Assembly: GCA_026709725.1 (NCBI GenBank) | Contig: JAPOSK010000515.1 | Coordinates: 1 to 21,580 of the forward strand | Direction of reading: 5' to 3' | Length of the DNA: 21,580 bases | From: Paracoccaceae bacterium | Lineage (GTDB): Bacteria; Pseudomonadota; Alphaproteobacteria; Rhodobacterales; Rhodobacteraceae | Part shown: positions 5,564-16,443 of the stretch, piece after piece | Position numbering within the stretch: position 1 is the first letter of the stretch | Layout: every line of letters begins with the position of its first letter | Program-made: the position numbers and the translations under genes | Notes under the pieces: model-generated | Told to the model about the DNA's origin: nothing | The model's input: only the letters and a program-made list of their open reading frames with translations | Databases searched by the model: none

Positions 5564-6640
5564 ATGACGGATTGCAATAGTCGCACGACCGTTCATGTCT
5601 ATGATTTCTTCGCTGGATGTGGAGGGACCAGTTGTGGCTTCCGCTCTGCGGGGATGGAGGTTGGGTTTGCGTTGGACCACGACCCGGACGCAGGAGCAAG
5701 TTTCAAAGCGAATTTTCCCGAAGCGCAATTCGAGCGTACGGATATTCGCAAGGTCGATATCGAAGCAGTCCAATCCAGGATGCACCAATCAAATCCAGTG
5801 CTCTTCAGCGGGTGTGCACCATGCCAACCCTACACGAGGCAAAAGACCACACGACCGAGGCTGGACCTGGATGAGCGTGTGCCTTTGCTTGACTGTTTTG
5901 CGAATCTTGTGGAAAAGTGTTTGCCGGATCTTGTCTTTGTGGAGAATGTGCCAGGATTGCAGAAGCTCAATGCGTGCAGTCAGCCATTTGGAGCTTTCGT
6001 GAAGCGACTTGAAGGTGCAGGTTACAAGTTGGACTATCGGCCAATCAAACTTGCCGGATATGGTATACCGCAAACCCGCTGTCGCCTTATCCTCATGGGG
6101 AGTCGTCTTGGCAGGGTCCGCTTGCCGGATGAGACTCATGGTCCGGGAACAGCAAACGAGCAATACGTGACAGTTCGGGACCGGATCGCTCATCTTCCAC
6201 CAATTCAGGCAGGGGAAGAGCATGACGATGTCCCCAACCATAAAGCGGCGAATCTCTCGGCACGCAATCTGGAGCGCATCAAGGCGACACCGGAGGGCGG
6301 CGGCAACCGGGATTGGCCGATCAATTTGATGCTCAAATGTCACAGGGGATTTTCAGGCTACAGTGATGTCTACGGCCGGATGTCGTGGGATGCCCCGGCC
6401 TCCGGGCTCACGACACGGTGCATAAGCTATTCAAACGGCCGCTTCGGCCACCCGGAGCAGCACAGGGCGATAAGTGTCCGCGAGGCTGCCTGTCTGCAAA
6501 CATTCCCCGAAGACTACACCTTCAAGGGGAGCATGGCGTCGATGGCAAGGCAGATTGGCAACGCAGTTCCGGTCCGCCTTGCCCGCCTTGTCGGACTTCA
6601 GTTCATCAAGCACCTCAAGGACGCGGGTGGTTTTTCCTGA
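5564..6640 (+). CDS. C5-cytosine DNA methyltransferase (Dcm family)
   Basis: This enzyme transfers a methyl group from SAM to C5 of cytosine in a specific DNA sequence. The 358-residue protein has the family motifs in canonical order: motif I DFFAGCGGTSCGFRSAG (14-30), motif IV SGCAPCQPYT with catalytic Cys87, motif VI VFVENVPG with Glu127-Asn128, motif VIII QTRCRLILMG (170-179), a target-recognition region at about 185-295, motif IX near SVREAACLQTFP (304-315) and motif X RQIGNAVPVRLA (329-340). It therefore appears active and single-specificity; the target cannot be predicted. The ribosome binding site is poor. Its TGA overlaps the ATG of the GHKL protein (TGATG), so they form one translational unit. 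With no recognisable endonuclease beside it, it acts either as an orphan methylase or as the self-marking part of an unusual defence system. Confidence 0.93.
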   Translation: MTDCNSRTTVHVYDFFAGCGGTSCGFRSAGMEVGFALDHDPDAGASFKANFPEAQFERTDIRKVDIEAVQSRMHQSNPVLFSGCAPCQPYTRQKTTRPRLDLDERVPLLDCFANLVEKCLPDLVFVENVPGLQKLNACSQPFGAFVKRLEGAGYKLDYRPIKLAGYGIPQTRCRLILMGSRLGRVRLPDETHGPGTANEQYVTVRDRIAHLPPIQAGEEHDDVPNHKAANLSARNLERIKATPEGGGNRDWPINLMLKCHRGFSGYSDVYGRMSWDAPASGLTTRCISYSNGRFGHPEQHRAISVREAACLQTFPEDYTFKGSMASMARQIGNAVPVRLARLVGLQFIKHLKDAGGFS

Positions 6641-9606
6641 TGGCAACATTCAGGACGCGCGCCCGGACAATCGACATGCTTGGGCGACAGCAGATCGCCG
6701 GCATCCCAACCGCGATCAGCGAGCTCTTCAAAAATGCGCACGATGCCTACGCCGATCATGTCGTGATTGATTACTATCGCTCGGACGGCCTCTTCGTCCT
6801 GCGGGACGACGGAATCGGAATGAATCATGGCGACGTCATGACACGGTGGCTCACCATCGGTACGGAAAGTAAGTTCGACCCTGATCAACGACCGCCGCAA
6901 GACCCCGACAAGCCGCCGCGCCAGATGCTCGGAGAGAAGGGTATCGGGCGGCTTGCGATAGCAACCATCGGTCCGCAGTTGCTTGTTCTCACCCGTGCAG
7001 GAACTGGTGAGAGCACCTCCGATCTCACGGCAGCCTTCCTGAACTGGGGCATCTTCGAATGGCCCGGCATAGACCTTGAAGATATCAATATCCCTGTGCG
7101 ATCATTTTCATCAGGTTCACTGCCGTCGGCCCGGGATGTAACCGAGATGGTGGACGAGTTCCGCGATGGCGCCGCAGGAGTGGGGGACAATATTAGGTCC
7201 GATTTGCTGGAAAAACTCGAAAGGGATCTGAATCTCTTCGATGTCGACCCGCAGGACATCAACTCCTGCCTTGGAGCGCCATCTCTTGACGCGGGAAATG
7301 GTGGAACGCACTTCATCATCAAGCCCGTCTCGCCCCTGCTGGCAGATGATATCGATGGCGATCCCACAATTGGCAAGGCAGCCGCACTCAAAAAGGCGAC
7401 ACCCCTGAAGAAGGCACTGCTCGGGTTCTGCAATACCATGACGCCTGGGGCACAAACTCCGATCAACACCTCGTTCCGTGATCACAGAACGGATGAATTG
7501 GTCGAGGACCAGATTGGCCAAGATGAATTTTTCACCCCTGATGAGTTTCAGAACACAGATCACCGGATCAGCGGCGCTTTCGACGATTTCGGCCAGTTCC
7601 GGGGAGAGATATCAATCTACGGTGAGACGATGGCCGACCACATTATTCCCTGGAATGGTGCACAGGGCATTCGCACTCTGTGCGGCCCTTTCTCCATTGA
7701 CTTTGCTGCTTTCGAGGGCGAGAGTCGGCATTCGACCATCCCGCATCAGGATCATGTGAGGCTGGCAAACAAGACCGAGCAGTTGGGCGGGTTGTACATC
7801 TACCGAAACGGCATCCGCGTTCTCCCTTACGGTGACACGGATTACGATTGGCTGGACATCGAATTCAGGCGAACGAAGAGCGCCTCCTACTATTATTTTT
7901 CGCATCGAAAAATGTTTGGTGCGGTGGAGCTTGATACGGAAAAGAACCATCGCTTGCACGAAAAGGCCGGGCGAGAGGGATTCCAGGAAAACAAGGCCTA
8001 CCGTCAGTTCCGATCAATACTTCAGAACTTCTTTCTTCAGATTGTGGCGGACTTTTTTCGTGCCGAGGGCATGCATACCGAAGCATTCGAGTCGCGAAAA
8101 GACCAGCTTTCAAGGGAAGACAAAGCCAGAAAACAGCGGGAAAAACATGTTCGGGAAAGAAAGAGAGCATTTGAAGACAAGCTGAACGATTTCTTCGAAA
8201 GCCTCAGGAACGACAAGCCCCGGAGCAGGGTATCGGCACTGACGGAACGTGTAGAATCGGATTTGCGGGAGGCATGCCAAATAGCGAACAGCGAGTTGGC
8301 CGGGCGGACGATCCTTGATCTCGAACGCAAGGCACATTCGGATATCAGAGATATCGAAAATGATTACCGTATCTCGAGACCGCGTATTGGTTTGAGTAAA
8401 GCCTCGCTTCGGGACTGGGGTGCGTATGAGTCCGAATATTCGTCACTTCAGAAGGCTGTATTCAGACCGGCATGGAACAGGATTGATGAGATCATTGGTG
8501 AAGAGGTCAGAAAGGCAAAGTTGTCACTCAGTCTTCGTGTCAGGACAGAAGCTGCGCTCAATGACCTTGGACAGAAGGTCCGAAAGGATACGGTCAGGTC
8601 TGGCCAAAATGTAAGAGCGGAAGCGGACGAAGTTGCCACAAGAGCACGAGAGGTGGCGGCTCAATCACTGAAGGGCGTTGAGTCGGAATTGCGTGAGGTA
8701 TTCAGTGAGTTTCAAAGAATTGACTTTGCCGGAATGTCCGATGACCTGTTCATTGAGACCAGGGAGGAGCTGGAGACCAGGGTTTTGAATGTTGCGGAAG
8801 ACCACAGGGTATTGCTGCAGTCGGTATTGGAACAGCTTCAGTCAGTGGATGTAAACGGTGACATCTCGACAGCGGAACAGCTCATGGCGATTGAGCAAAG
8901 GAATCTGCTCCTGGAAGAGAAGGCTGGGGCCGACACACAGTTGGCACAGCTGGGAATGGCGATTGAAATCATCAACCACGAGTTTTCGGGAACGATACGG
9001 TCGATCCGTATTGGTTTGCGAAGACTGAAGGCTTGGGCGGATGTCAATGAGGGTCTGGTTGATTTGCACAACAGCATCAGGGCGAGCTTTGATCATCTCG
9101 ACGGATATCTAACGCTTTTCACGCCGTTGCAACGACGACTGTACAGGAAAGCGGTGGCAATTCGCGGCTACGAAATCCGGAACTTTCTGCAGGAACTGTT
9201 CGGTGCCCGACTGGCACGCCATGATGTTTCCCTCAGCGCAACGAAGGCATTCGACAGTGCCGAGATCACCGGTTTCCCCTCAAACTTTTATCCCGTATTC
9301 GTGAACCTGGTGGACAACGCAATCTTCTGGGTGTCTCAACAGAACCCCCGACAGGAGCGAAGCATCAGGCTGGATGAGCATGATGGAATATTGCTCGTAA
9401 CTGATACAGGGTCGGGAGTTAATGTTCGCGACCGAGAGGCTATTTTTGAGTTCGGCTTCACTCGAAAACCCGGTGGGCGTGGAATGGGATTGCATATTGG
9501 GCGCGAGACCCTGCGCCGTGTCGGGTTCGACCTTGTGTTGATTGATGGCACTGAGGGAACAACATTCGGAGTCGGACCGATGAACGGGTCGGCGAAAGAG
9601 TTATAG
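6640..9606 (+). CDS. Dual-GHKL protein: MORC/MutL-like ATPase fused to histidine-kinase-like module
   Basis: I start this 988-residue protein at the ATG overlapping the methyltransferase stop; the frame is open further upstream only inside that gene. N-terminal GHKL ATPase: N-box ELFKNAHDAYA (28-38, Asn32), DDGIGM (56-61), and lid GEKGIGRLA (98-106). The segment YIYRNGIRVLPYGDTDYDW followed by DIEFRR resembles the S5-fold transducer of MORC/MutL-type proteins. A long charged, probably coiled-coil region covers about 488-760. C-terminal module: H-box-like AIEIINHEFSGTIRSIR with His780, second N-box VNLVDNAIFW (888-897), G1 VTDTGSGV (920-927), F-box FEFGFTRKP and G2 GGRGMGLHI (945-953). The second module looks like a sensor kinase lacking any membrane segment, and a receiver-domain protein follows immediately. 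MORC-like ATPases are known beside restriction-modification genes. DNA-responsive signalling by phosphotransfer is my inference. A pure chaperone-like ATPase with a decayed kinase fold is the alternative. Confidence 0.85.
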   Translation: MATFRTRARTIDMLGRQQIAGIPTAISELFKNAHDAYADHVVIDYYRSDGLFVLRDDGIGMNHGDVMTRWLTIGTESKFDPDQRPPQDPDKPPRQMLGEKGIGRLAIATIGPQLLVLTRAGTGESTSDLTAAFLNWGIFEWPGIDLEDINIPVRSFSSGSLPSARDVTEMVDEFRDGAAGVGDNIRSDLLEKLERDLNLFDVDPQDINSCLGAPSLDAGNGGTHFIIKPVSPLLADDIDGDPTIGKAAALKKATPLKKALLGFCNTMTPGAQTPINTSFRDHRTDELVEDQIGQDEFFTPDEFQNTDHRISGAFDDFGQFRGEISIYGETMADHIIPWNGAQGIRTLCGPFSIDFAAFEGESRHSTIPHQDHVRLANKTEQLGGLYIYRNGIRVLPYGDTDYDWLDIEFRRTKSASYYYFSHRKMFGAVELDTEKNHRLHEKAGREGFQENKAYRQFRSILQNFFLQIVADFFRAEGMHTEAFESRKDQLSREDKARKQREKHVRERKRAFEDKLNDFFESLRNDKPRSRVSALTERVESDLREACQIANSELAGRTILDLERKAHSDIRDIENDYRISRPRIGLSKASLRDWGAYESEYSSLQKAVFRPAWNRIDEIIGEEVRKAKLSLSLRVRTEAALNDLGQKVRKDTVRSGQNVRAEADEVATRAREVAAQSLKGVESELREVFSEFQRIDFAGMSDDLFIETREELETRVLNVAEDHRVLLQSVLEQLQSVDVNGDISTAEQLMAIEQRNLLLEEKAGADTQLAQLGMAIEIINHEFSGTIRSIRIGLRRLKAWADVNEGLVDLHNSIRASFDHLDGYLTLFTPLQRRLYRKAVAIRGYEIRNFLQELFGARLARHDVSLSATKAFDSAEITGFPSNFYPVFVNLVDNAIFWVSQQNPRQERSIRLDEHDGILLVTDTGSGVNVRDREAIFEFGFTRKPGGRGMGLHIGRETLRRVGFDLVLIDGTEGTTFGVGPMNGSAKEL

Positions 9607-9610
9607 GAAG
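9605..9610 (+). promoter_or_regulatory. Shine-Dalgarno of the receiver protein
   Basis: AGGAAG overlaps the TAG stop of the dual-GHKL gene and ends 6 nt before the ATG at 9617. It fixes the start and indicates co-translation within one operon. Confidence 0.6.
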
Positions 9611-9616
9611 AAGTCA

Positions 9617-11173
9617 ATGGATTCCGCAGAAGAAAATTGTGGTCGCAAAATTGCCCAACGCTTTCTTCGAACGGCGGTTGTTGTCGACGACCAAGCCTAT
9701 ATTCTATTGGCCGAAGAGCTTGCCAAGCCGGGATTGAAGGTGCCAGGTCGGCACACACGAGCATCGAGCCAGAACGGTCAGGATGCGGCTGCTCGTGGTT
9801 TGATCCACAGTCTGGATGCAGGTGCTGTTATGGATGCATTCTCAGCACTTGGAATTATCTGTGGTGTGGTCAACCCAAATGATGATGCGATGGAAACGGT
9901 GCGGCAGGCAGACATCGTGATCATTGACTGGCTTTTGAGGGACGGCAAACCTGATCACACAATCAAATTGATCCAAGAGCTGTTTGGATGTGAAGATCGG
10001 AATTCGCTCCGACTCCTGGCCATTTATACCGGAGAAACAAATCTGAAAGAGATCTCCGTGAAGATTTCTGGAATCCTGCAAGACGCTGATCTTGATCCTG
10101 TGATGACGAGAAATGACACATCAATCCTGTATCGACATGGTCAGGTGGTTCTTTATGCCAAGTCTGGTGTGAATTTGGCGAATGAATTGCTGTCCCGCAG
10201 GGTTCCTGAGAGGGAGTTGCCAGGGAAGCTGGTTGAGGATTTCGCGTCAATGACTGCGGGATTGCTCCCTGCCATTGGGCTCACCTCGCTGACTGCGGTT
10301 CGAGAGGGGACACACAAGGTCCTTGATCAGTTCAGTGCCGATCTGGATCCTGCGTATCTTGCGCACAGGGCATGCCTTTCCAATGCCGAAGATGCAGAAC
10401 ACCAGATTGTGGCCCATGTCGCGGAGGAGTTTCGTGGACTCATGGACAGCATGGTGGCGGAAGAGTCTCCTGCCGGAGCGAAGAAAGTGGAGGAGTGGGT
10501 GAAACGCAAAGGCAGGGAATTGGGGGAATTCACATTTGGCAAGGAGGGAAAACAACTCAACATTGATGAGACCATAGCCTTGGCGAACCAAGGCCTGGAT
10601 GCGAGTCCCCAGTTGAAAAGAAATGCCTTCGAAAGCCTTTCAGATGGCTTTGCCGGCAGCAATACCTATGACCTTGACGAGCGATTGGCTTGGATCATGA
10701 GTTTTCGAACGGTCTACAATACACCGTCACCGACCTTGTGGCTCGGCACCATCGTGACTGCGATATCCGATAACAATGAGCAGCATCTGATCTGCATGAG
10801 GCCCCGATGTGATTGCGTAAGGTTGACGGGGCTGACGAAATTCCTGTTTCTGCCATTGGTTGACCCGAGAAAAGAGATGGATCAGATCGTCGTCAGGATC
10901 GAGGATGAATACAAGCGGCTGGGCATCAACGGTGATCCCGATGGTTGGCAACTCATAAAATTCAAGCCGGTGAATGGGAGCAATACCGTCTCAGCGTCGG
11001 CAGATGATGATGGATTGAAATTCAAGGATCTCGGTGGGGTCGAATATACGTGGCGCGGTGAACTGAAGGCCGAGTATGCACAAAGGATCGCCCAGAACTT
11101 TGGGGAGAAACTGAGCCGTGTAGCGATAGATGAATCTGAATGGTTGAGACGATCAGCCAGAAAACAGGTCTGA
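9617..11173 (+). CDS. Receiver-domain protein with large unknown C-terminal region
   Basis: A 518-residue soluble protein. The N-terminal ~185 residues keep the landmarks of a response-regulator receiver: hydrophobic strand and acidic pair TAVVVDDQ (Asp24-Asp25), strand 3 with the presumed phospho-acceptor Asp104 in IVIIDWLLRDG, Thr138 in LLAIYTGE and Lys182 in VVLYAKSG. About 40 extra residues separate the acidic pair from strand 2, so it is longer than a standard receiver and resembles the divergent 'response receiver' family seen in conflict systems. Residues ~195-518 match no DNA-binding output domain I know. They include an alpha-helical middle, TLWLGTIVTAIS, and a cysteine-containing motif ICMRPRCDCVRL (Cys393, Cys398, Cys400). 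The gene follows the dual-GHKL kinase by 10 nt and is its obvious partner. A 180-nt sample (9961-10140) has 79 G/C, more A/T-rich than neighbours. The C-terminus may be the effector; that is inference. Confidence 0.75.
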   Translation: MDSAEENCGRKIAQRFLRTAVVVDDQAYILLAEELAKPGLKVPGRHTRASSQNGQDAAARGLIHSLDAGAVMDAFSALGIICGVVNPNDDAMETVRQADIVIIDWLLRDGKPDHTIKLIQELFGCEDRNSLRLLAIYTGETNLKEISVKISGILQDADLDPVMTRNDTSILYRHGQVVLYAKSGVNLANELLSRRVPERELPGKLVEDFASMTAGLLPAIGLTSLTAVREGTHKVLDQFSADLDPAYLAHRACLSNAEDAEHQIVAHVAEEFRGLMDSMVAEESPAGAKKVEEWVKRKGRELGEFTFGKEGKQLNIDETIALANQGLDASPQLKRNAFESLSDGFAGSNTYDLDERLAWIMSFRTVYNTPSPTLWLGTIVTAISDNNEQHLICMRPRCDCVRLTGLTKFLFLPLVDPRKEMDQIVVRIEDEYKRLGINGDPDGWQLIKFKPVNGSNTVSASADDDGLKFKDLGGVEYTWRGELKAEYAQRIAQNFGEKLSRVAIDESEWLRRSARKQV

Positions 11174-11569
11174 TTGCCCAGTCCGGGGCAAGGAGATGTT
11201 GTGAATTGACAGGGTTATCGGTTTGTACGGATACAATCAGGTGAGTTTTGGGCAGGCGCAAACCATGCAATGCGGGCTCGGGAATTGACGTCGGCAGAAT
11301 GGAGAGGGCGCAATCGCTTCATCACTGGATTGGATCTTGAGATGATGGAGAAGGATTTTGAAACAGGTCATGTACCATGCTGTCACGCAATCCGTGTGCT
11401 GTGACTTTCAACCAGAGGACAGAGCACAAAGTGGGCGTATCCGATATGCTGTCCTGTGACATTGTGTCGGAACCTGTTGAGTCTTTCCTCACTGTTTCGT
11501 GTATGGCTGCACATGTCAACCATGGCGGCACGCAAGGCAGGAGGGTTGCAGGGGAATGCCGGGATATGC
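11174..11569 (+). other. Gene-poor region after the system operon
   Basis: No convincing gene lies in these 396 nt. A hairpin with a 6-bp stem (TTGCCC/GGGCAA, 6-nt loop, 11174-11191) begins directly after the receiver gene stop and could weakly terminate or protect the transcript, but lacks a T-run. A consensus TTGACA occurs at 11206-11211 with a poor GATACA at 11230 (18-nt spacing), a possible promoter for the glycosyltransferase. A 44-codon ORF at 11270-11404 and the open frame from 11456 into the glycosyltransferase show no recognisable content. TGCTGT recurs at 11378, 11397 and 11447 without an evident role. No integrase or attachment repeat was seen. Confidence 0.35.
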
Positions 11570-12637
11570 ATGCCTGATATGCGAGCGCGGGATGCAGATA
11601 TCCTTGTGCCGAACTTCAAGTCGAAGGTCACAGGGGTGACGGCAACGATTGTGCAGTTGACCCGACTGCATCAGAAGGTTGCCCGTGTTGCAATTGTTGG
11701 AAGGTGCCCCGCGCATGACCTGCCGGTGCTGACGATCACGCAACTGCTGAAAAGTTGGCGTCGCCCGCGGATCTGGCATGCACGACGGAATGGCGAACTG
11801 ATTGCAGGGCTGTTCTTGAAACGACTGTTCGGTATGAACATCGCAGTTGTCTTCACCTGTTCCAATCCACGCCCCCGGACAGGATTGACGCGTGCCATGC
11901 TGCGTCACGTTGATGCGATCGTGGGGACCTCAACTGCAATGCAGGACTCGATGCCACAGCCATTGACAGCCATTGTGCCGCATGGGATTGATCGCACCGT
12001 CTTTCGGCCAGCTGGTGATCGGGCAGCAGTCCGGAGGCAGCTGGGATTGCCCGGTGGGTTTCTGATCGGGTCGTTCGGGCGAATCCGTCCGGAAAAGGGA
12101 ACGGATGTCCTGGTTGATGCCGGGCTTGGACTTCTCAGGGAGGGGCGGGATGTCCGATTTCTTGTCGTTGGCAAAGTGGCACGCGGACATCGTTCGTATT
12201 TTCAAGGCCTGCAGCATCGGATTGCTGCCGCTGGAATGCGTGAGCGGTTTCTCTTCCGTGAAGCGGTACCTTATGAAACGATCCCGCTCTGGTATCAGGC
12301 ACTTGACCTCTTTGTCGCCGTTCCGCGCTGGGAAGGGTTTGGCTTGACAGTTCTGGAAGCCATTGCAAGTGGTGTCCCCGTTGTTGCGTCACGGCAGGGT
12401 GTCTTTGCGAGCATTGTTGCACCCGGCAGGACAGGGCATCTTGTTGCATGCGATCGTCCGGGAGATGTACGTGAAGCCATTGCCATGATGGTCGGTGATC
12501 TTACCGGGACCAGGGGAGCCTATCGGGATGTGATGCGCCACATCCCGGACGCGTACCATATTGAGACAGAAGCCCGACGGCTCCTTGATCTTTATGAAGA
12601 TCTCCTCGGCAGACAATTGAGCCGTAACCGGGTCTGA
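11570..12637 (+). CDS. GT4 glycosyltransferase, LPS core mannosyltransferase type (LpcC/LpsB-like)
   Basis: This family adds a sugar, typically mannose, from a nucleotide sugar to the inner core of lipopolysaccharide at the cytoplasmic face of the inner membrane. I start at ATG 11570, preceded by GGGA with a 5-nt spacer, giving 355 residues; the frame is open to 11456, and ATG 11579 is another option. Diagnostic segments are ILVPNFKSKVTGVTATIVQL near the N-terminus, RIWHARRNGELIAG, VPHGIDRTVFRP, FGRIRPEKGTDVL (about 169-181, start of the donor-binding domain) and the EX7E motif in RWEGFGLTVLEA (Glu255 and Glu263). The first and second segments are typical of alphaproteobacterial LpcC/LpsB proteins. 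It lies immediately right of the accessory operon and is probably core genome. The exact sugar and acceptor are inferred from family only. Confidence 0.85.
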   Translation: MPDMRARDADILVPNFKSKVTGVTATIVQLTRLHQKVARVAIVGRCPAHDLPVLTITQLLKSWRRPRIWHARRNGELIAGLFLKRLFGMNIAVVFTCSNPRPRTGLTRAMLRHVDAIVGTSTAMQDSMPQPLTAIVPHGIDRTVFRPAGDRAAVRRQLGLPGGFLIGSFGRIRPEKGTDVLVDAGLGLLREGRDVRFLVVGKVARGHRSYFQGLQHRIAAAGMRERFLFREAVPYETIPLWYQALDLFVAVPRWEGFGLTVLEAIASGVPVVASRQGVFASIVAPGRTGHLVACDRPGDVREAIAMMVGDLTGTRGAYRDVMRHIPDAYHIETEARRLLDLYEDLLGRQLSRNRV

Positions 12638-14472: not shown

Positions 14473-15845
14473 AATTCAACCTGTCTTTGAACCTCATTTG
14501 GTGCAGTGCCACCGAAGCTGGAACGGCTTTTGACTGACGCCTCCAGTGTCAGCCGCCGCTGGATTGCGGGGGTCAGGAGCGGATGGATTGCCTCAAGGGC
14601 ATCGGGGGGAACCGTATCAAGTGAACAGTCACGTCTGTCAGCTTCCTTGACCAGCTCGCCAACAATGTGATGCGCTTCACGAAAGGCCAGATTGTGCTCC
14701 TGAACGAGAATGTCGGCAAGATCCGTGGCCGTCGTATGCCCGTGCCCAGCTGCAATACGCATGGCCTCAGAATTGATCGTGATGTGCTGCATGATGTCAG
14801 TCATGACAATGAGGGCCATCCTGAGCGTGTCTGCTGCATCAAACAGTGGCTCCTTGTCTTCCTGCAGGTCCTTGGCATAGGCAAGCGGCAACGCCTTGAT
14901 GACCGTGAGCAGGCCAACAAGACCACCAAGGATCCGACCGACCTTCCCCCGGATGAGCTCGGCAACATCCGGATTCCGCTTTTGCGGCATGATTGAAGAG
15001 CCCGTCGCCAGGGCATCAGGCAGGGTGATGAAGCCGAACTGTTGTGAGGACCAAAGCACGAGTTCTTCTGCCAGACGGGAAAGATGCACTCCAGCGATTG
15101 ATGCAGCGGCCAGAAACTCCAGCACGAAATCCCGATCACTGACAGCATCAAGTGAGTTGGCCATCGGGCCCTCGAACCCCAGCTCTCCGGCTGTGAACGC
15201 GCGATCAATGGGGAAGGATGTCCCGGCAAGTGCCGCTGCACCGAGCGGACACATGTTGCCGCGTCGGCGGGTATCATTCAGGCGTCCCTTGTCACGCTCA
15301 AGCATCTCCACATAGGCGAGGAGGTGATGCCCCAGGGTGACAGGCTGGGCATTCTGGAGATGGGTAAGACCCGGCAGGATCGTTTCTGCATGATCGGCCG
15401 CCCCTCGCACCAGCGTCACCTGCAATGCCTCCAGGCACTCAACGATTCCGTCGATGGCATCGCGGAGCCAGAGCCGCAGGTCAGTGGCGACCTGATCGTT
15501 GCGGCTGCGGGCTGTGTGCAGACGACCGGCTGCCGGACCAATTGTGTCGGTGAGCCGGGCTTCGATATTCATGTGGATATCTTCAAGCTCTGTCGCAAAG
15601 GGGAATGTCCCTGCCTCGATTTCCTGCTCAATCGCCAGAAGACCCTGCTCAATCGCCTTCATGTCCTCCTCACTGAGAATTCCCTGTCGTGCCAGCATTC
15701 GGGCATGAACAATTGAGCCTCGGATGTCTTGGCGGTATAGTCGCTGATCATAGGAGATCGAGGCATTCATTTCCTGTATCAGTGTGTCGGGTTCCTGACA
15801 GAATCGGCCGCCCCACATCGGGTTGACCGGGTCTCGTCCTGCCAT
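14445..15845 (-). CDS. argH: Argininosuccinate lyase
   Basis: ArgH cleaves argininosuccinate into arginine and fumarate, the last step of arginine biosynthesis, as a cytoplasmic homotetramer. I place the start at ATG 15845 (MAGRDPVNPMWGGRF), preceded by GGAG 8 nt upstream, giving 466 residues as usual; the frame extends 21 codons further but into the divergent gene's leader. Conserved blocks are GRLHTARSRNDQVATDLRLW, the catalytic His162 in LTHLQNAQPV, and the signature TGSSIMPQKRNPDVAELIRG with Ser283, the known catalytic positions of this superfamily. It is divergent from the thioredoxin-like gene, with only 34 nt between the two start codons. Confidence 0.97.
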   Translation of the reverse strand: MAGRDPVNPMWGGRFCQEPDTLIQEMNASISYDQRLYRQDIRGSIVHARMLARQGILSEEDMKAIEQGLLAIEQEIEAGTFPFATELEDIHMNIEARLTDTIGPAAGRLHTARSRNDQVATDLRLWLRDAIDGIVECLEALQVTLVRGAADHAETILPGLTHLQNAQPVTLGHHLLAYVEMLERDKGRLNDTRRRGNMCPLGAAALAGTSFPIDRAFTAGELGFEGPMANSLDAVSDRDFVLEFLAAASIAGVHLSRLAEELVLWSSQQFGFITLPDALATGSSIMPQKRNPDVAELIRGKVGRILGGLVGLLTVIKALPLAYAKDLQEDKEPLFDAADTLRMALIVMTDIMQHITINSEAMRIAAGHGHTTATDLADILVQEHNLAFREAHHIVGELVKEADRRDCSLDTVPPDALEAIHPLLTPAIQRRLTLEASVKSRSSFGGTAPNEVQRQVELWKTRLHIS

Positions 15846-15853
15846 ACTTTTTG

Positions 15854-15857
15854 CTCC
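15854..15857 (-). promoter_or_regulatory. Shine-Dalgarno that decides the argH start
   Basis: GGAG on the minus strand, 8 nt before ATG 15845, supports the shorter argH start and not the in-frame upstream starts. Confidence 0.5.
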
Positions 15858-15866
15858 ATGCTGAAT

Positions 15867-15871
15867 GAGGA
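15867..15871 (+). promoter_or_regulatory. Shine-Dalgarno that decides the thioredoxin-like gene start
   Basis: GAGGA with an 8-nt spacer to ATG 15880 favours that start over the in-frame ATG 15865, which has no such site and would put five extra residues before the signal peptide. Confidence 0.5.
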
Positions 15872-15879
15872 CACTTCCG

Positions 15880-16443
15880 ATGCGTTTCATCTTCCCACGG
15901 GTTGCCATTTATGTGCTGACCTGCCTCTTGACAATACATGCCACCGGACTGAATGCTGATCAGGACCTGGCTGCACTTCGGGATGGCAGCCTCAGGAAAC
16001 TTGTCATCCACGATGCCCCCAAAGCCAACACCTATGGCCCACTCGAGGCCATGGATGGCAGCCGGACGCATCTTCAGGACCTCGACAGCACCGTTCTCGT
16101 TGTGAATTTCTTTGCCGTCTGGTGCGCACCCTGCCGGATCGAAATGCCATCCCTTGATCAACTGCAATCGCAGTTCAACGCCGAGGACCTGACTGTCCTT
16201 GTCATTGCCACCGGACGGCATGCCGAGGGTGCCATTGAGACCTTCCTGACCGAGACCCGGATCACCAATCTCACCATCCTTCGTGACCCCACCGGCGCCT
16301 TCAGCCGCTCACTCGGCGTCTTTGGTCTGCCCACCACCCTGCTTCTTGATGCAAATCGTGATGAAGTCGCTCGCCTCGTCGGTGATGCGGACTGGGACAG
16401 TGCATCGGCCGTCGCCATCATGACCCGCATGCTGGAGGGTTGA
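15880..16443 (+). CDS. Exported TlpA-like thiol-disulfide oxidoreductase
   Basis: A 187-residue thioredoxin-fold protein of the TlpA/ResA type, which reduces or isomerises disulfides in the periplasm, often for cytochrome or copper-centre assembly. The N-terminus (MRFIFPRVAIYVLTCLLTIH) is a signal peptide or anchor. The redox site is NFFAVWCAPCRIEMP with Cys82-Ala-Pro-Cys85, and the cis-proline lies in GVFGLPTTLLLD (Pro151). The segment KLVIHDAPKANTYGPLEAMD before the fold is typical of the alphaproteobacterial proteins encoded next to argH. It starts the + strand series that runs to the BamF-like gene, with 1 nt separating its stop from the following small ORF. Confidence 0.88.
   Translation: MRFIFPRVAIYVLTCLLTIHATGLNADQDLAALRDGSLRKLVIHDAPKANTYGPLEAMDGSRTHLQDLDSTVLVVNFFAVWCAPCRIEMPSLDQLQSQFNAEDLTVLVIATGRHAEGAIETFLTETRITNLTILRDPTGAFSRSLGVFGLPTTLLLDANRDEVARLVGDADWDSASAVAIMTRMLEG
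16434..16439 (+). promoter_or_regulatory. Strong Shine-Dalgarno before the 74-codon ORF
   Basis: GGAGGG lies in the last codons of the thioredoxin-like gene, 5 nt before ATG 16445. It is among the best ribosome binding sites in the window and is the main argument that the small ORF is translated. Confidence 0.55.

Follow-up and report, generated by a model that had tools for sequence, protein, structure and literature searches.

A conserved unit of C5-cytosine methyltransferase, paraMORC-like HEF_HK kinase, and Response_reg_2 receiver genes as a candidate anti-phage defence cassette

Genes and domains of the locus

The window, i.e., the whole 21,580-nucleotide stretch of Paracoccaceae bacterium DNA that was analysed, carries three adjoining genes on the same strand at positions 5564 to 11173, which encode a C5-cytosine methyltransferase, a 988-aa kinase, and a 518-aa receiver protein. 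Pfam and the sequence itself bear out the gene identities and the layout given in a preliminary description of this DNA, in which the first two genes are linked by a TGATG overlap and the last two by a 10-nt gap with a ribosome-binding-like site. The start of the kinase gene was set to the ATG at 6640 (the mechanical open reading frame begins at 6385) because this codon overlaps the methyltransferase stop and because the one-base overlap recurs in relatives; it is also found in 8 of the 37 loci in which the methyltransferase gene lies upstream. The features are as follows.

5564..6640, + strand: C5-cytosine DNA methyltransferase gene (358 aa)
5819-5827, + strand: PCQ catalytic motif of the methyltransferase
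Methyltransferase residues 127-129 and 170-174, + strand: ENV and QxRxR motifs, respectively
6638..6642, + strand: TGATG stop/start overlap of the methyltransferase and kinase genes, read from the sequence
6640..9606, + strand: gene for the paraMORC-like GHKL ATPase/HEF_HK histidine-kinase-like protein (988 aa)
6709..7032, + strand: N-terminal GHKL ATPase domain HATPase_c_3, residues 24-131 (Pfam E 3.1e-12)
7033..7989, + strand: putative S5-type half that completes the ATPase module, marked by the conserved GLYIYRNGIR (384-393) and EKAGREGF (441-448)
7990..8934, + strand: poorly conserved linker of the kinase, residues about 451-765, from the drop in identity
8947..9147, + strand: HEF_HK phosphoacceptor domain, residues 770-836, with H780-E781-F782 at 8977-8985 (Pfam E 5.7e-27)
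9289..9567, + strand: C-terminal HATPase_c catalytic domain, residues 884-976 (Pfam E 1.5e-13)
9605..9610, + strand: AGGAAG ribosome-binding-like site, which overlaps the kinase stop and lies 6 nt before the receiver start, read from the sequence
9617..11173, + strand: receiver protein gene (518 aa), from Pfam and the AlphaFold2 model
9662..10162, + strand: Response_reg_2 receiver domain (PF19192), residues 16-182, with the predicted phosphoacceptor D104 at 9926-9928 (Pfam E 4.7e-29)
10181..10714, + strand: helical middle domain of the receiver protein, residues about 189-366, from the AlphaFold2 model
10715..11170, + strand: beta-rich C-terminal domain of the receiver protein, residues 367-518, from the model and conservation

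The methyltransferase belongs to the DNA_methylase family (PF00145; Pfam E 2.2e-46, 159.3 bits) and matches TIGR00675 with 131.7 bits against a cutoff of 100.65. The residues of its PCQ, ENV, and QxRxR motifs are identical in all 37 aligned methyltransferases, that of the window included.

The kinase contains two GHKL domains, in which the catalytic residues examined are largely conserved. In the N-terminal domain, E28, N32, D35, D56, G58, G60, G98, K100, G101, and G103 are identical in 39 of 39 kinases (window included), and in the C-terminal domain the same holds for N889, D892, N893, G924, G946, G948, and G950. At the G1-box position D922, 28 of the 39 kinases have Asp and the other 11 Asn, and the activity of the kinase half may accordingly vary across the family. 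The HEF_HK match reaches 94.4 bits against a gathering cut-off of 24.1, and the HEF motif (H780-E781-F782) is present in 39/39 kinases. The conserved region that follows the N-terminal domain appears to be of the S5 type. The linker (residues 456-765), with a mean pairwise identity of 0.31 compared with 0.54 for the flanking parts, probably forms long helices. The strict MORC motif of the S5 domain, GhXhhpXXRhl, occurs in 0/39 kinases, and the Arg of GLYIYRNGIR in the window kinase lies one residue later than in that motif; the ATPase is therefore named paraMORC-like. Thus, of the dual-GHKL MORC/histidine kinase that had been proposed, the two GHKL domains and the kinase features stand, and the MORC label is to be corrected to paraMORC-like.

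The Response_reg_2 match of the receiver protein, whose gene adjoins that of the HEF_HK protein, reaches 102.2 bits against a cut-off of 27. D24, D104, and K182 are identical in 40/40 receivers and D25 in 36/40, and position 138 is Thr in 36/40 and Ser in the other 4. The full His-Asp set (the phosphoacceptor His, the ATP-binding boxes, the receiver Asp pair, the phosphoacceptor Asp, Thr/Ser, and Lys) is present in the window proteins, which suggests, at the level of sequence, that they are chemically equipped for a His-Asp relay with a second ATPase feeding into it.

The structure of the receiver protein was predicted confidently by AlphaFold2 (pLDDT 88.7). Its beta-rich third domain carries the conserved motif C393-x4-C398-D399-x2-R402 (10793-10822), and the protein ends with ESEWLRR; the confident model and the conserved motif in this predicted domain are new here. 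The top three Foldseek matches to the model are MazF (best E 2.2e-3, probability 1.00, TM by target 0.61, and rmsd 5.5, with the aligned range not given), and no rows were returned at E 0.001 or better. The VIA-align rows for the model mostly cover residues 16-214. We infer that the MazF match belongs to the C-terminal domain, which is perhaps an SH3-like barrel resembling MazF. PF02452 was not listed for any of 10 receiver C-terminal pieces at E up to 5, a search in which filters drop most weak matches, and hhalign of the domain against MazF/PemK gave a probability of 0.1, compared with 98.6 for a PemK split control. The MazF likeness of the model is, accordingly, one of predicted fold without sequence support.

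Conservation of the unit and its genomic setting

Further loci were collected by a one-genome-per-species scan with the receiver alignment and two peptide patterns, and the resulting sample of 42 loci leans towards the clade of the window because the patterns came from close relatives. The sample includes records titled Pseudomonadales, Rhodobacteraceae, Cyanobacteria, Latescibacterota, Gemmatimonadetes, Nitrospira, Rhodothermales, Chloroflexi, Hymenobacter, Vibrio, and Geobacter; most of the loci are MAG contigs, the titles of which may be mis-binned. The kinase gene adjoins the receiver gene in 42/42 loci, and a C5 methyltransferase gene is found at 39/42, upstream on the same strand at 37 and downstream on the opposite strand at 2. 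In two of the three remaining loci (L005 and L037), the contig begins within the kinase gene or immediately upstream of it, and the third (L044) has no methyltransferase gene in about 5 kb upstream. A separately drawn sample of 398 genomes from the phylum was scanned with a receiver C-terminal domain profile built from the 42-locus set, and 8 of them, the window's own included, gave a match. Six of the other seven have the complete trio, with the receiver and the C-terminal domain in one frame, and the seventh locus (L095) lies too close to the contig start to judge; L095 apart, the domain was not seen outside a trio locus in this draw. The distance correlations among the three proteins are 0.70-0.75 (35 sets, window included), values calculated without a species control. 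The trio is kept together elsewhere, as had been expected of it; because the arrangement is conserved, it is not a chance one, and, judged by sequence, the three genes form one unit. In one of the loci (L017), part of a kinase gene and another methyltransferase gene lie at 14712-16321 on the - strand, the strand opposite to the first trio and about 3 kb away from it; these extra pieces are possibly a duplicated or decaying copy.

A Vsr gene is located within about 6.5 kb at 19/42 loci, a few of these genes being fragments, as detected with a model made from two Vsr proteins of the window's own genome. Since Vsr corrects the deamination of 5-methylcytosine (established knowledge; also PMC8011034, in the part available), its proximity fits an active methyltransferase and not a restriction partner, as expected beside active 5-methylcytosine marking. 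Two Vsr genes were noted on other contigs of the genome. On contig C199 (L073; 1922-5191, + strand), C5 methyltransferase, Vsr, and GHKL/HATPase_c_3 genes stand in a row, the last of which runs off the contig; this is a separate methyltransferase-Vsr-MORC-like operon. The second Vsr gene is on contig C111 (L072; 1388-1882, + strand), near a gene that reads as Lon protease-like.

The preliminary description placed the trio as an insertion between housekeeping genes. Twenty relatives with RppH were found, and stretches of 10 of them (10-19 kb) were compared with the window. The order RlmH-GpmI-CtpA-RppH is kept in 10/10 stretches and the next SAM-methyltransferase gene in 9/10, and none of the trio genes has a match at E 1e-8 in these stretches. 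The upstream side of the insertion is therefore supported by synteny without the trio in all 10 relatives, whereas the downstream side is weak: a glycosyltransferase 25-28% identical to that of the window occurs in 5/10. The glycosyltransferase gene downstream of the trio (11456-12637, + strand) matches general glycosyltransferase families most strongly and, secondarily, GT4-conflict (PF20706; E 4.2e-8, 33 bits vs 26).

Response_reg_2 was found in 2/100 genomes of the family, including the window's own, and the receiver of the other one (G069) is 27% identical to that of the window, compared with 58% and 56% for the receivers of loci titled Latescibacterota and Cyanobacteria. This sporadic distribution with distant best relatives, which agrees with the earlier view of the locus, is what horizontal spread would give, provided that the MAG titles are right. 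A plasmid search with a Vibrio relative as the query gave 2 matches in 72,556 records, one of which covers 34% of the query, and no match to the window's receiver was found in phage records. On contig C390 of the window's own genome (L071; 2164-2847, + strand), a 227-aa frame combines part of an HEF_HK domain with the C-terminal portion of a C5 methyltransferase; it probably represents what is left of a second locus of this type. The sporadic distribution, this relic, and the MazF fold hint from Foldseek would all suit an addiction module, in which the loss or dilution of methylation turns the kinase-receiver pair on the host and so keeps the cassette in the genome. However, the MazF likeness is confined to the predicted fold, and a phenotype of the trio is not known from the literature searched; we regard an addiction module as very improbable.

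Nuclease searches and comparison with described systems

Pfam shows no nuclease domain in the trio. In the kinase, no C-terminal PD-(D/E)xK domain (DUF4263) was matched, only PF19191, PF02518, and PF13589 being found at E up to 0.1. No clear nuclease residue set was seen by eye among the linker columns conserved at >=80%, but this is a weak negative, as charged residues, E562, D695, and E712 among them, do occur there. Neighbouring genes were scanned as 91 of 92 ORFs of the 42 loci (one in L021 was left out); no more than one upstream and two downstream neighbours were taken from each locus, and ORFs of <100 or >700 aa were excluded. Among the first 25 families listed, Vsr is the sole one found in more than 2 of the 91 ORFs (13/91 by Pfam and 13/91 by PADLOC), and the nucleases comprise HNH_2 in 2, EcoRII-C in 1, and the REase_II model in 2; HNH_2 and EcoRII-C indicate that nuclease genes do occur near some of the loci. 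The three neighbours scanned in the window, one upstream and two downstream, are not restriction-modification (R-M) genes. Unless a nuclease is of an unrecognised kind or is coded elsewhere, the lack of a recognised one places the effector in the receiver or the kinase.

No PADLOC model matches the receiver, and the other two proteins match methyltransferase models only (type II, Druantia, and DISARM among them), apart from two weak REase_II matches. Residues 10-123 of the kinase resemble a PADLOC REase_II model (E 3.8e-13) and, in a match confined to that part, the BbrUII/HgiDII restriction enzymes (NF050001, E 4.1e-17). Together with the conserved polar motif of the receiver, these matches speak for an ATP-dependent R-M system with a nuclease of an unrecognised kind, in which the receiver C-terminal domain, or a complex that it forms with the GHKL protein, would cut unmethylated DNA and the relay would serve only as a gate. 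However, the NF050001 score of 61.9 bits is far below the cut-off of 550, the trio has no Pfam nuclease domain, and the conserved Cys, Asp, and Arg of the receiver are, as read, not the PD-(D/E)xK set; such a restriction system therefore seems unlikely.

Iyer et al. (2008; PMC2292703) report, in the part of the article available, that MORC, paraMORC, and other prokaryotic GHKL relatives sit in R-M operons. The N-terminal GHKL domain with an S5-like half and the context of cytosine methyltransferase and Vsr are shared with those ATPases, whereas the window family differs in lacking the strict MORC motif (0/39) and in having HEF_HK and HATPase_c in addition. VcSduA, a GHKL-headed Shedu protein (paraMORC3), defends against phage and needs both its ATPase and its nuclease residues, and its anti-phage activity is lost on the E27A mutation in the ATPase (PMC12137116, available text). 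The N-terminal GHKL ATPase in a defence protein is the point of likeness to the kinase; VcSduA, however, ends in a PD-(D/E)xK nuclease (DUF4263), for which the window kinase has no Pfam match. In the available part of PMC13092281, HATPase and REC (receiver) appear as abbreviations in a figure legend on predicted, unvalidated defence systems, one of which may correspond to the trio.

The closest counterpart is the HEF_HK/Response_reg_2 system of Bellieny-Rabelo et al. (2021; PMC8011034), who defined both domains and, in the text available, give a linkage of 91.6% in 644 regions, a C5 methyltransferase frequently upstream, over-representation of R-M genes, the presence of Vsr, and paraMORC ATPases as the likely ancestors. 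The window shares with that system both domains, the order HATPase_c_3+HEF_HK+HATPase_c (group 1, 174/222), the upstream C5 methyltransferase, and the frequent proximity of Vsr. There is no difference in kind; the C-terminal receiver domain is modelled here for the window, and the available text mentions no other known domain in Response_reg_2 proteins. The composition, for which the preliminary description knew of no well-characterised system, has thus been in print since 2021, and the trio therefore matches a described system that is functionally uncharacterised, as far as the available text goes. No functional study of the trio was found in the literature searched, a body of text outside which most subscription journals fell.

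The same authors offer, as speculation, that the signalling controls R-M systems (PMC8011034, available text). A two-component-like regulator that acts on R-M or other host genes, at the level of their expression or of their activity, and is not itself a defence effector is compatible with the His-Asp residue set. On the other hand, neither Pfam nor the searches with its C-terminal pieces revealed a known DNA-binding output domain in the receiver, and none of the three scanned window neighbours is an R-M gene, which makes a purely regulatory role quite improbable in our estimate.

Proposed function

The most likely reading, to which we give about an even chance, is that the trio is a horizontally spreading, methylation-guided anti-phage defence cassette with a His-Asp relay as its signalling route. 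The methyltransferase would mark self DNA at its site, and the N-terminal GHKL/S5 module would close on DNA in an ATP-dependent manner and detect unmodified DNA. This change would be transmitted along the long linker and reach the HEF_HK domain, where the C-terminal ATPase domain would phosphorylate H780; from there the phosphate would be handed on to the receiver at D104. Once phosphorylated, the receiver would be the effector, or recruit one, via its beta-rich, perhaps MazF-like, C-terminal domain, and the phage or the infected cell would be stopped. The DNA state that is sensed and the action of the output are the weakest steps. A His-Asp relay in phage defence is found in Detocs; to our knowledge, the sensor and effector of Detocs differ from those of the trio, and Detocs has no methyltransferase.

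The defence reading is supported by the conservation of the unit and its residues, the sporadic spread, and Vsr at 19/42 loci, and, by analogy, by the ATPase requirement of VcSduA (PMC12137116) and the R-M operons of GHKL relatives (PMC2292703), each as given in the available text. Against it count the absence of a Pfam nuclease, the Asn at D922 in 11/39 kinases, the absence of a PADLOC model for the receiver, the few plasmid and no phage matches, the possible mis-binning of MAG titles, and the speculation on R-M control in the available part of PMC8011034.

A more specific proposal, which we consider rather unlikely, is that the receiver has a MazF-like barrel and acts as an effector gated by the phosphorelay; i.e., the paraMORC ATPase would detect unmethylated DNA, the histidine kinase in the same chain would signal, and a toxin-fold output would act. 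If true, this would be an immunity based on self/non-self DNA in which two-component signalling replaces restriction, with no nuclease at the recognised site.

The conserved receiver motif and the model name residues to mutate, and the role of the system is therefore directly testable. The trio family spans phyla, and MORC-type ATPases are related to eukaryotic silencing ATPases. If the defence model is right, DNA-methylation identity, MORC-type ATPases, and His-Asp signalling would be joined in one system, a combination that we know of nowhere else.
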